A DNA stretch of 64,000 bases, taken from positions 1 through 64,000 of the forward strand of contig JAJYIU010000015.1 in the NCBI GenBank assembly GCA_021789895.1, written 5' to 3'. Of the stretch, positions 4,188 through 10,743 are shown one piece after another; position 1 is the first letter of the stretch; each line of letters opens with the position of its first letter. The DNA is from Acidobacteriota bacterium (GTDB lineage: Bacteria; Acidobacteriota; Terriglobia; Terriglobales; SCQP01). Under the pieces are notes generated by a model. It made no database searches. It was not told the DNA's origin and saw only the letters and a list, made by a program, of their open reading frames with translations. The position numbers were made by a program, and so were the translations under genes.

Positions 4188-4262
4188 GGCTGTTTCCAGT
4201 TTCGGTTTATTTCGGGCCGAATGCCAGTCCGGGCCAGGGCGGATAAGATCCGCAGTCTGCGC

Positions 4263-4302
4263 GTGGTGCTAAACCGATTTTTAGGGCCAGAGTTAGCACC
4301 AC
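4263..4302. promoter_or_regulatory. Inverted repeat GTGGTGCTAA-N20-TTAGCACCAC
   Basis: Perfect 10-bp arms upstream of moaD and at the left edge of the lower-GC block. Confidence 0.5.
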
Positions 4303-4426
4303 AACCCAAGCGCCGGGGCCATTCCTACAGGGAATCCAACGGCGGCCGCGCCGCCGGATTTTCAAAATCATACTCAGCTTGGTGCGGAGGAGGGGGATCA
4401 GGTCAATGGTAATGGATGGTCTGCTC

Positions 4427-4804
4427 CTACGTGGCGACGCTGAGATGGATTGTCAGCTCCTGAGCCGCATGCTTGTCGATGCGCACCCGGAGCTCATAAA
4501 TGTTCATGCCAGGCGCCGACACTCGGATATAGAAAAGCTTTCCGCTCTTCGCCGGTTCAAGGCAGAAATGCCCCTTCGCATCAGTTTTAGTCGACACGAG
4601 CACATTCTTCCAGTCAGAGCTACGCAGTTCAACTGTCACTCCGTCTGCTGGTTCGTCCATTCCTTTAATGAGTACCCGCCCCGCCAGAGCACGACTCACG
4701 GAGATTTTCTTTTGCACAACAAGCTCCGTCGCGTAGCCGGTCTGCCCAGTCAGGAAGAGGACCAGCACCAGAAGTACCAGTTGCTTAGGAATTCTCATGG
4801 TCAT
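4427..4804 (-). CDS. Secreted carboxypeptidase-regulatory-like/Ig-like domain protein
   Basis: Signal peptide MTMRIPKQLVLLVLVLFLTGQTGYA; VSRALAGRVLIKGMDEPADGVTVELRSS...GHFCLEP pattern. Confidence 0.65.
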   Translation of the reverse strand: MTMRIPKQLVLLVLVLFLTGQTGYATELVVQKKISVSRALAGRVLIKGMDEPADGVTVELRSSDWKNVLVSTKTDAKGHFCLEPAKSGKLFYIRVSAPGMNIYELRVRIDKHAAQELTIHLSVAT

Positions 4805-4807
4805 TTC

Positions 4808-5713
4808 TTAATGATGATCCCCCCTTGCGGATTTGAAGAGATGCATACCGTAGGTAGCCAGGTGCCGACCGCCAAGATAAGCTTCGGTGCGCTGCCAGGC
4901 TCCATTCGACAGCTCGGAGACAATATGGCCACTCAGATCGTAAAGAAATGAAGTGAACGAGGCACATTGGCCGTTGTTGTCCATCGTACATTTGGCGGCG
5001 CGGTGGCCGGCGGCATCGTAAAAGTAATCCACTGCCCCAGGACTCGAACCGTTGCCGCCATTGCCATAAACACAAGCCAGCTGGCCTTCGGCGTCGTAAC
5101 TGAAATTATGTCCCAGGCCGTCATTGAGCAGATCGCCGGAGGCGTCGTAGCTATAATGGTCCATGCGATTGTTGCCGCCATTGAAAGTCAAGCCGGATAG
5201 AGTCAACCCGCTACCCGCGGTGACATTCTGGTCCCAACGGTTGCCGAAACGATCATAATCCCAGCTCAGACCGAAATGGCTGCCGTTCCCATCCGGGCAA
5301 TTCGAAGAGCAATTGGCCGCCAGCAAGCGATTCATATCGTCATAAATATAAACCCACTTGCCATTGACGGCATCGTTAGCTTCGGCGATATCGCCATCGG
5401 GAGCATAGGAAATTTGCAGCCAGTAAATACCCGTAGGCGGAATGGGATCGGCGCCACCGGTTAAGGTTGCGCCGGAAAGCGTTTCGGTAAACGAAGGCGA
5501 GGAAAACCATTGCGTCTGCCAGCTTTCCATTGGCAATAAAAATGCATCCCAGATCTGCTGTCGGCACCGGTCAGAGGGATCGCAAACATGATACGAAATA
5601 CCTACTCCATCTGCACTTATCGACTCAGTGGGCGCATATCCGCGGACGTGAGAAGTCTGGACATTCGCAACAAAGAGGCGTAGACTGCGCGTTGGGACAT
5701 TTCGCCTTGGCAA
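4808..5713 (-). pseudogene. RHS/YD-repeat protein remnant
   Basis: YIYDDMNRLLAAN, WDYDRFGNRWDQNVTAGSG, YSYDASGDLLNDGLGHNFSYDAEGQL, YFYDAAGHRAAK, YLGGRHLATYG; ends before any DPxGL core motif and lacks a long N-terminal part. Confidence 0.7.
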
Positions 5714-6561
5714 ACATATTTTTCATTGATGATGATTGCGCTTCGCAACTCGTTGTTGACAATCTCACACAACGCGGTCACGAAGTACATCGAACGTCCT
5801 GTTTGGAGGACGCACTTCACGATATAGAATGTATTATCAATAGCGACCTTGTTGTTCTAGACTTAATTATGCCTCGATTAGGAAACATACCCACGGACAG
5901 CCCCGATGGCGAACGTTGTGCTGGTATGTTACTGTATCGCGAAATTAGGCGCAAACGGGCCAATCTGCCAATCTTGATATTCACAGCTAACCAGGACCCC
6001 GCTCCGCGGCAGATAATCGATGCTGATCGGCACGCCAGATACATCGGTCGTTGGTCATCTCCGAGCTTTTCAGAATTCATAAGCATAGTCCTCGAGATGG
6101 CTGGCGCCCAAGCATCAACAGGGCGGCTGCGTCCCTTCATTGTGCATGGTCAGGACGAAAAGACCAAGTTAGAACTGAAGAACCTACTTCAAAATACACT
6201 AGGGATGGATGAACCGATTATTTTACATGAGCAGCCAAATCTCGGCCGCACGCTGATCGAGAAGTTCGAAGACTTGGCTACCACTGCTGACCTTGCGTTT
6301 GTACTGCTCACGCCTGATGACAAGCTCGCGAGCCCAGGCGACTTAGAAGCGGACAAACGGCGGGCCCGGCAGAACGTAATCCTTGAGCTCGGATTCTTCC
6401 TGAGTATGATGGGCAGGCATTCAGGTCGCGTATTTCTTCTTTACAAGGGAGCGCTAGATGTTCCGAGCGATCTCAGCGGGATTGTCTATATTGACATTTC
6501 CGCTGGCTTAGCTGCGGCCACCGAAGAGATCCGTCGCGAACTTGCGGCGATTGACCACTGA
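5707..6561 (+). CDS. Receiver (REC) domain fused to TIR-like nucleotide-binding domain (PF10137 / CAP12-Pycsar-type)
   Basis: REC: ANIFFIDDD...SDLVVLDLIMPR...PILIFTAN. TIR-like: FIVHGQDEKTKLELKNLL, IILHEQPNLGRTLIEKFEDLA, DLAFVLLTPDD, RRARQNVILELGFFLSMMGRHSGRVFLLYKG. TTG start at 5707 inferred (track ORF begins 5530). Confidence 0.85.
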   Translation: MANIFFIDDDCASQLVVDNLTQRGHEVHRTSCLEDALHDIECIINSDLVVLDLIMPRLGNIPTDSPDGERCAGMLLYREIRRKRANLPILIFTANQDPAPRQIIDADRHARYIGRWSSPSFSEFISIVLEMAGAQASTGRLRPFIVHGQDEKTKLELKNLLQNTLGMDEPIILHEQPNLGRTLIEKFEDLATTADLAFVLLTPDDKLASPGDLEADKRRARQNVILELGFFLSMMGRHSGRVFLLYKGALDVPSDLSGIVYIDISAGLAAATEEIRRELAAIDH

Positions 6562-6579
6562 CATGTTGATGGAGGCGCA

Positions 6580-7422
6580 ATGAACGTCCAGAGTTCCGAG
6601 GAGCAAATGGCCGCGTTAAAGGAGGAGAATCGTAAGCTAAGAGAGGAACTTGACCGCAGGAATAGAGAACGGATTGAGTACCTTCAGAATGTTTCCCATC
6701 AACTTGTTGCGCCATTGAATGCGATTAAATGGCACATTGAGAACATCACCTCGGCCCGAGTGGGTGTCGAGCGAGCGCAGAAGGTGCTACGTTCTGTGTA
6801 TTCCCAAGCTACGATTGCTGTGCACCTTGCCAAGAACTTTGCGTTGATGTCCAATCTCGAAGCGGATCATGCTTTGAACGCACTCCTCGAACCGCTCGAA
6901 CCTGTAAACCTGTGCCGACTACTGATTAACCTCTCCGACGACTTCCAGCCCCAGGGGTGGGACAGGGAGGTGCAGATTGGCGTTGAAGCAAGGCCGTTAG
7001 AAAGCGCGCCTGATGTTCTGGTTATAAAATCTCTCGTGAGCCAAGTGTTCAGCAATTTAATTGAAAATGCAGTGAAATATGCAAGCAAGGCTTCCGCGAT
7101 TGTCATTGACGGCTCCCATATGCCCACACGCGAAGCCGTTAGCGTAAACGTGCGTAATTATGGCATACCACTCAAGCCGCAAGATATGGAACGCATCTTC
7201 GAGCGCGGGTACCGGACGCAAGAGGCAAAGAACATGTATCCGGCAGGAACGGGCTTTGGGTTGTACATTGCTAAGAAGATTGTTCAGCTCCACGAAGGTA
7301 CGATAACTGTATCCTTCGATGATCGCCGCCGCATCGTGTTTACAGTAACATTACCCATCCGGGCTCTCGAAGGGAAGACCAAAGAACGTGGCCCGAAAGA
7401 CGATTCTCCTCATCGACGATGA
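6580..7422 (+). CDS. Soluble sensor-less histidine kinase (HisKA + HATPase_c)
   Basis: Coiled-coil-like N-terminus, H-box NVSHQLVAPLNAIKW, N-box FSNLIENAVKYA, G-box AGTGFGLYIAKKIVQLHEG; no TM or sensor domain visible; SD ggagg. Confidence 0.9.
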   Translation: MNVQSSEEQMAALKEENRKLREELDRRNRERIEYLQNVSHQLVAPLNAIKWHIENITSARVGVERAQKVLRSVYSQATIAVHLAKNFALMSNLEADHALNALLEPLEPVNLCRLLINLSDDFQPQGWDREVQIGVEARPLESAPDVLVIKSLVSQVFSNLIENAVKYASKASAIVIDGSHMPTREAVSVNVRNYGIPLKPQDMERIFERGYRTQEAKNMYPAGTGFGLYIAKKIVQLHEGTITVSFDDRRRIVFTVTLPIRALEGKTKERGPKDDSPHRR

Positions 7423-7819
7423 GCAAGGATTCCTGGAACCCTTGGAAGATGCTCTGACCTACGAAGGGTATCGTGTCCTCAAGGCCCGCGATGCCAGTAC
7501 CGCAGTCAGAATATTGAGGGAAGAGCAGATTGACCTTGTGTCGGTTGACATAATGTTATCGCCTGGCCCCGACTTTGAAGGCAGCGTCGACGCACAACGA
7601 GCAGGGGTTTACCTATGCGATCTAATTGCGAGACATTACCCGAACCTCGACGCTTTTTGCCTTAGCGTAATAACTGATAAGGAGACCATTCAGCACATAA
7701 AGCAACTCGGAATTAGGTTCCTTCGAAAAGGAGAAACGCCCCTTCGAACGGTGTTGGACCTAATGCGGTCACGGCTTCTTGGCACAGTTTCCTATCGCTC
7801 CCGCCAAAATCCCGGATAA
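7388..7819 (+). CDS. Stand-alone response regulator receiver protein
   Basis: TILLIDDEQGFLEPLEDALTYEGYRVLKA, LVSVDIMLSPG, FCLSVITDK, FLRKGETPL; overlaps the kinase gene by 35 nt. Confidence 0.85.
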   Translation: MARKTILLIDDEQGFLEPLEDALTYEGYRVLKARDASTAVRILREEQIDLVSVDIMLSPGPDFEGSVDAQRAGVYLCDLIARHYPNLDAFCLSVITDKETIQHIKQLGIRFLRKGETPLRTVLDLMRSRLLGTVSYRSRQNPG

Positions 7820-8149
7820 CTCGGCGCAAATTGAACGAGTTCCGATTCGCATAGACTGACCCGGGCAGTCGTGCCAATCTTCACCACACCACCTAGAAAT
7901 CCACATAGCTGCATAACAGCCAAGTCTCTGAATTGACGCATCAAATTCAAAGGCCTTGAAGGATGCACGAGCCAATAATCCATCCTTCGATAAATTCCGG
8001 CGCGCTTTCGAATCCTGGCTGCAATTGCAGCCTCGATCATACGCGCATCTGGCATAGTATCGGAGAATAGATTTTTTCATGGCCGCGCCGGCTCTTACTG
8101 CCGCTTTTCGCCGCTGCGCGCAGGCCGCCGCGCGCGCCGTCAAGCCCAT

Positions 8150-9582: not shown

Positions 9583-10743
9583 ATGTGGATACCGCGTACG
9601 ATTGAGCCCCGATTGCTGCGTTCGGTGAAGACGCGGCCGGTGGTGGTTTTAACCGGAGCGAGGCAAGCCGGCAAAACGTCCACCTATTTACATTTATTTC
9701 CACAATATGCGTTTGTTTCGCTCGATTTGCCGGCCGAAGCGGAGCAGGCGGAAAAAGAACCCGGACACTTTCTGCAGCGCCATCCGCCGCCCGTCATCCT
9801 GGATGGGGTTCAATATGCGCCGGGGTTATTCCGGCACTTGAAGATTGCGGTGGATGCCGACCGAAGCCGTCCGGGACAATTTCTACTCACGGGTTCCCAG
9901 AAATTCACATTGATGAAGAACATTTCGGAATCGCTGGCGGGGCGCGCCGATATCATCGAATTGGAAACGCTATCGCTGAAGGAAATTCGGGCGGCCAGGC
10001 CGGAGATCGGGACCGAGACCGCCATGATCCGCGGCGGTTTTCCGGAGCTGTATGCGAACCCGGAGATCGATGCGATCGCTTTTTACAATTCCTATCTCGC
10101 CACCTATCTCGAACGCGACGTGCGTTCGCTGGCGAATGTGGGCAGCTTGCGGGATTTCGAGCGTTTTTTACGGGCCTGCGCGCTGCGCTCGGCGAATTTG
10201 CTGAACAAGGCGGACCTGGCGCGCGACGTCGGCATATCTCCCTCGACGGCGAATCATTGGCTCTCGACGCTGGAAGCGTCCGGCCAGATCGTTTTTCTCG
10301 AGCCCTGGTTTTCGAATCGCACCAAGACGATCGTGAAAAGCCCAAAGCTCTATCTGGCCGACAGCGGCCTGCTTTGCGCATTGTTGAACATACGGTCGGA
10401 GGAGGCGCTGCGGGCATCGCCGGCGGCGGGCGCGGTTTGGGAAACCTTCGTCTTCGCGCAACTGCGCGAACGCGAGCGGCGCGCGGGGCGCGCCGGCAAC
10501 CTGTTCTATTGGCGCGATCGCTCGCGCGAAGTGGATTTTGTAAGCGATGCCGGCGGCCGGCTGGAATTATACGAGGCGAAATGGACCGAATTACCGACGG
10601 CGGGGGACACGGTCAATCTCGACTATGTTCGCCGGGTGGCGGGGGAATCGGGCATTACCGAAGGGGCGATCGTGGCGCGCGCGGCGAACAGCTACCCGCT
10701 GCCGAACGGATTTCGGGTGCTGCCGGTGACGGAACTGGAATGA
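9583..10743 (+). CDS. AAA+ ATPase, DUF4143-containing (AAA_14 type)
   Basis: VVVLTGARQAGKTSTYLHLFP, FLLTGSQKFTLMKNISESLAGR, IRGGFPELY, YLATYLERDVRSLANVGSLRDFERFLRACALRSANLLNKADLARDVGIS, LYLADSGLLCALL, FYWRDRSREVDFV. Confidence 0.92.
   Translation: MWIPRTIEPRLLRSVKTRPVVVLTGARQAGKTSTYLHLFPQYAFVSLDLPAEAEQAEKEPGHFLQRHPPPVILDGVQYAPGLFRHLKIAVDADRSRPGQFLLTGSQKFTLMKNISESLAGRADIIELETLSLKEIRAARPEIGTETAMIRGGFPELYANPEIDAIAFYNSYLATYLERDVRSLANVGSLRDFERFLRACALRSANLLNKADLARDVGISPSTANHWLSTLEASGQIVFLEPWFSNRTKTIVKSPKLYLADSGLLCALLNIRSEEALRASPAAGAVWETFVFAQLRERERRAGRAGNLFYWRDRSREVDFVSDAGGRLELYEAKWTELPTAGDTVNLDYVRRVAGESGITEGAIVARAANSYPLPNGFRVLPVTELE

Follow-up and report, generated by a model that had tools for sequence, protein, structure and literature searches.

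The closest described counterpart of the operon analyzed here is Detocs, outlined in PMC11728103 as a kinase (DtcA), a buffer protein that absorbs phosphate (DtcB), and a response regulator (DtcC); its best-described effector, according to PMC11249213, is PNP, which cleaves ATP. The TIR domains of CAP12 and Pycsar, in turn, become NADases via oligomerization (PMC13142454). The logic of a kinase, a buffer receiver, and a receiver-effector is not new, having already been published for Detocs. Here we describe an operon that, like Detocs, consists of three genes, for a kinase, a lone receiver, and a receiver fused to a predicted nucleotide-destroying effector; this effector is PNP in Detocs but a TIR domain (PF10137) in our operon. 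Our literature search, mostly of papers outside subscription journals, found no description of a fusion of a receiver (REC) to TIR accompanied by a kinase.

The operon lies between a ThiS-like gene and xseA in a window of 64,000 nucleotides (the whole stretch of DNA that was analyzed). It shares a stretch of low GC content with an RHS-repeat fragment:

4200-8100, strand not applicable: low-GC stretch with the operon and an apparent RHS-repeat remnant; GC about 0.48-0.56 versus mostly 0.65-0.75 in flanking genes
4808-5713, minus strand: RHS-repeat fragment, immediately upstream of the operon and within the low-GC stretch listed above
5707-6561, plus strand: REC-TIR fusion gene, 284 aa, TTG start
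6580-7422, plus strand: sensor-less histidine kinase gene, 280 aa, ATG start
7388-7819, plus strand: lone receiver gene, 143 aa, GTG start

A preliminary description, made from the DNA sequence of the window, had proposed three genes on one strand, with an 18-nt gap between REC-TIR and kinase and a 35-nt overlap between kinase and lone receiver, and the open reading frames in 5707-7819 bear out this layout. All three frames are intact, and their start codons are consistent with the N-termini of relatives in sequence comparison.

The first gene had been described as a receiver joined to a TIR-like domain, with a profile search suggested as the means of placing the C-terminal domain. In Pfam, this half is PF10137 (residues 144-265; E 1.6e-30), at 106 bits against a curated cut-off of 24.7, and the N-terminal half matches PF00072 at residues 5-99 just below the cut-off (28.7 versus 30.2 bits; E 1.6e-6). 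The receiver, spanning about residues 3-130, was recognized by family profile and predicted fold: the N-terminal half of a four-sequence REC-TIR profile aligns with solved receivers, and in an AlphaFold2 model (mean pLDDT 83.5, pTM 0.63) this half is predicted to adopt a receiver fold, with a TM-score of about 0.75-0.8 (normalized by target) to receiver structures. Given the pTM of 0.63, the placement of REC relative to TIR in the model is uncertain. Since receivers filled the list of the fold search, the TIR half rests on Pfam and on sequence matches to solved structures, namely Cap12 and PycTIR.

Across the four operons that we identified (see below), D9, D10, and D52 of the receiver and H147, G148, E185, R221, N223, and E227 of the TIR domain are invariant. 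E227 (RARQNVILELG), the putative catalytic Glu, is also invariant in 21 other PF10137 proteins. The acid pair, the phospho-acceptor Asp, the Thr/Ser, and the Lys of a receiver are all present in the other three REC-TIR members. In the window copy, D9, D10, D52, and T93 are kept, and R115 stands where the three relatives have the conserved Lys. In CheY, a K109R change still permits phosphorylation but blocks signaling; judged from the alignment, R115 is a real caveat for the window REC-TIR.

The reading of the second gene as a HisKA/HATPase kinase without a sensor also stands. HATPase_c is found at 74 bits (1.4e-20, Pfam), and HisKA is weak (16 bits, 0.013, under the Pfam cut-off), yet the H-box NVSHQLVAPLNAIKW is plain. 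PhoR/WalK-type kinase models of NCBIfam align with the protein over residues about 24-260, and its build is soluble, with an N-terminal coil, a DHp domain with H40, and a HATPase domain. No sensor domain is visible in the operon kinase of any of the four genomes. The window kinase is 40-58% identical to its relatives, with the H-box and N-box invariant (H40; N159, E162, N163, and K166). In place of DxGxG, the G1 box of three members reads N-x-GIP and that of the fourth S-F-GIP; since all four kinases have a variant G1 box, we regard it as a family feature and not as damage to the window copy.

The third gene encodes, as described, a lone receiver (PF00072 at 42 bits, 1e-10, Pfam) with the acid pair (D10 and D11), phospho-acceptor Asp (D54), Thr/Ser (S93), and Lys (K114, in LRKGETPL). 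These five residues and E12 are invariant across the four operons. A 170-position PADLOC receiver profile that is weakly similar to the operon lone receivers, PDC-M43A, had no match in 198 genomes, nor in any control. As a side observation, three of the four lone receivers (P0003, P0012, P0006, and P0008) are weakly similar to the PADLOC profile of SduA (Shedu), at best 2.3e-6, and the lone receiver of another locus, on contig L045, is weakly similar to its first 100 positions. This similarity suggests that some Shedu proteins may carry a receiver-like N-terminus.

The preliminary description had proposed examining whether the kinase and the lone receiver are conserved beside REC-TIR, and we found the same three genes in three other genomes, of another phylum. 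On a contig of a Syntrophaceae MAG (L002), the REC-TIR, kinase, and lone receiver are 49%, 58%, and 57% identical to those of the window; the gene order matches that of the window, and the genes overlap slightly. When 396 genomes of the phylum of L002 were searched with a kinase profile, two further operons emerged, L039, with the gene order of the window, and L040, ordered HK, lone REC, REC-TIR. Full-length matches to a REC-TIR profile among these 396 genomes were confined to the same three, and when the window REC-TIR was searched against 396 genomes of the window's phylum, its own genome was the sole one with a full-length match. Syntrophaceae belong to the Thermodesulfobacteriota, and we take the window and L002/L039/L040 to represent different phyla because the two phylum samples share no genome handle. 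The total is thus four operons, plus one variant (G388). Kinase matches of 1e-32 in two genomes (G460 and G614) were discarded as membrane PhoR-type kinases adjoining PhoB-type regulators, not operon relatives. Viral contigs searched with the kinase yielded no further operon, and two receiver matches in them were ordinary receivers. On plasmids, no close ortholog of the kinase or the lone receiver was found, the matches being generic (28-39% identity).

As a control, we scanned flanks of roughly 1.5 kb around 21 other PF10137 loci in the two phyla. In this family, each of the four REC-TIR genes has the family kinase beside it, as against none of the 21 other PF10137 genes, so the kinase and lone receiver track the receiver-fused TIR and not TIR alone. 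PF10137 is common with other N-termini: by Pfam, a single control protein has a receiver domain (at L014), and a weak lone-receiver match (6.4e-6) likewise adjoins one of the 21 loci, again L014. None of our other results argues as strongly as this control for use of the receiver. Together with the four conserved operons, it rules out chance clustering; the three-gene set is an evolutionarily conserved unit.

The L014 exception comes from genome G388, in which genes for a GAF kinase, a 275-aa receiver protein, a REC-TIR, and a SpoIIE phosphatase follow one another on one strand (L075:3867-8430). Its REC-TIR scores 96 bits with PF10137 and 40.5 bits with PF00072. As in the window, a REC-PF10137 fusion has a kinase and a second receiver as neighbors; unlike in the window, the REC-TIR is divergent (29% identical to that of the window), the kinase has GAF sensors, the receiver protein is longer, and a phosphatase is added. 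It is the only operon of its type in 150 genomes of its class. The two assemblies suggest that the REC-TIR design may have arisen or been recruited more than once, common ancestry being also possible.

How does this operon relate to the TIR systems already described? CBASS Cap12/TIR-STING and Pycsar PycTIR belong to the same Pfam TIR family as the window REC-TIR, but their regulatory domains are STING or cyclic-nucleotide domains, whereas here it is a receiver. Pfam recognized no STING or cyclic-nucleotide domain in the window REC-TIR, and no CD-NTase or cyclase was recognized in the operon or the flanking genes scanned; we therefore rejected membership in CBASS or Pycsar for lack of a recognized cyclase there. 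PDC-S35, a PADLOC single-gene candidate comprising PF10137 proteins, matches the REC-TIR at 3.2e-44 over the TIR half only, whereas the N-terminal half of PDC-S35 proteins is not a receiver and no kinase of the window family is linked to them.

For Detocs, we compared the operon with one locus in genome G439 (L045:5433-10610), which matches the PADLOC profiles PDC-M60A/B/C and encodes a REC-PNP (located by PDC-M60C), a lone REC, and a 1167-aa kinase candidate matching PDC-M60A. From the architecture of this locus, PDC-M60A/B/C appear to be DtcA/DtcB/DtcC under a candidate name. Its gene order differs from that of the window operon, and its 1167-aa kinase candidate is without a Pfam match, whereas the window kinase is a conventional 280-aa HisKA/HATPase protein without a sensor. 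Could the window operon nonetheless be a Detocs by descent, with homologous DtcA/B/C and the effector swapped from PNP to TIR? The three-part logic is the same, the receivers of both loci have extra residues after the phospho-acceptor strand, and Detocs homologs with non-PNP effectors have reportedly been found. But the two kinases gave no real alignment (hhalign E 0.35 over 22 columns), and PDC-M60A did not match the window kinase. Receiver comparisons with this one Detocs-type locus gave E 1.5e-4 for the lone REC and 0.002 for the REC-effector, at low probability, and the lone receivers matched PDC-M60 profiles at best at 0.0033; the receivers thus seem to match only at superfamily level. 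Hence we rejected membership by homology on the negative kinase comparison with that locus, and consider descent from Detocs improbable. By analogy, the window operon, sharing the logic of Detocs, would operate in the same way, but with TIR as the effector and a kinase of minimal build.

The genome context bears on how the operon was acquired and on whether it serves defense. In a genome of the same genus, both flanks of the operon are kept with unrelated DNA between them. Because of the low GC, this operon-free site, and the patchy distribution, the stretch at 4200-8100 was probably acquired horizontally. The RHS-repeat fragment at 4808-5713 looks like the remnant of a larger gene. Between xseA and mnmG lies an AAA_14/DUF4143 ATPase gene (9595-10740, plus strand) with a GC content below that of its neighbors, likely a separate insertion. 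The preliminary description had raised the question of a defense island, and no defense genes were recognized beside the window operon among the flanking genes scanned. Upstream of the L039 operon are AbiV (4.4e-19) and DUF4238 (3.6e-30) genes. That first reading was right on PF10137, the conserved unit, and the key residues, but it left the Detocs precedent unmentioned, and the window copy lies in no recognizable defense island.

What the sequences show are the domains, the phosphotransfer and putative catalytic residues kept throughout the family, and the conserved linkage of the three genes; phosphotransfer and its direction, the TIR activity, the anti-phage and buffer roles, and the signal are what we infer from here on. 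Receivers commonly dimerize on phosphorylation; this and the oligomerization of CAP12 and Pycsar TIR domains lead to a simple model running from kinase to REC to TIR to NAD+ loss. A signal linked to infection, possibly entering through the N-terminal coil of the soluble kinase or through a partner protein, would increase autophosphorylation at H40. The phosphate would pass from H40 to D52 of the REC-TIR, and the resulting change in the receiver would bring TIR domains together. The oligomerized TIR would then degrade NAD+ or a related nucleotide, and the cell would stop before phage release. The lone receiver, sharing the kinase, could drain stray phosphate, like the DtcB buffer of Detocs, and so set a threshold against self-activation. 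A phosphorelay is plausible, and gating of TIR by REC phosphorylation is the most economical reading. As a whole, we favor the reading that the operon is a Detocs-like antiviral system of phosphorelay-gated suicide or dormancy, at about an even chance.

One rival serves no immunity at all: a metabolic or stress signal would lead the TIR-like domain to bind or process a nucleotide, with the lone receiver as the true output. PF10137 proteins are often annotated merely as nucleotide-binding, the window operon has no recognized defense neighbors, and the SpoIIE phosphatase of the G388 variant is typical of stress signaling. We nevertheless find this unlikely in view of the patchy distribution (one and three of 396 genomes), the low-GC insertion, the AbiV and DUF4238 genes beside one copy, and the resemblance of the TIR domain both to PDC-S35 and to the effectors of CBASS and Pycsar. 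Gating might also be inverted, constant phosphorylation by the kinase keeping REC-TIR off until loss of ATP, kinase, or phosphate in infection frees the TIR. This is a serious rival because the kinase is sensor-less: none of the four genomes shows a sensor domain on it, and under this reading it would need none. However, Detocs is switched on by phosphorylation, receivers in general dimerize when phosphorylated, and the lone receiver would be left without an obvious role; we judge it about as doubtful as a non-immune function. R115 and the adjacent RHS remnant could hint at a chance neighborhood or a decayed, functionless fragment, but the three intact frames, the conservation of the set across phyla, and the exclusion of chance already given make this highly improbable.

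The operon could represent a separate, convergently assembled form of phosphorelay immunity, in which a sensor-less kinase and a buffer receiver gate a CAP12-type TIR NADase independently of Detocs, perhaps once more in the G388 type. We offer this tentatively, as somewhat short of an even chance. Were it true, the His-Asp phosphorelay would be a general wiring for bacterial immune effectors. The known switch of CAP12-type TIR immune enzymes is a cyclic nucleotide; in this operon, a member of that enzyme family is joined to a switch worked by phosphate, whose own kinase and spare receiver stay together across phyla. This raises the question of how a kinase without a visible sensor detects infection. 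If confirmed, phosphorelay immunity would be modular and extend beyond Detocs with its ATP-cleaving effector.
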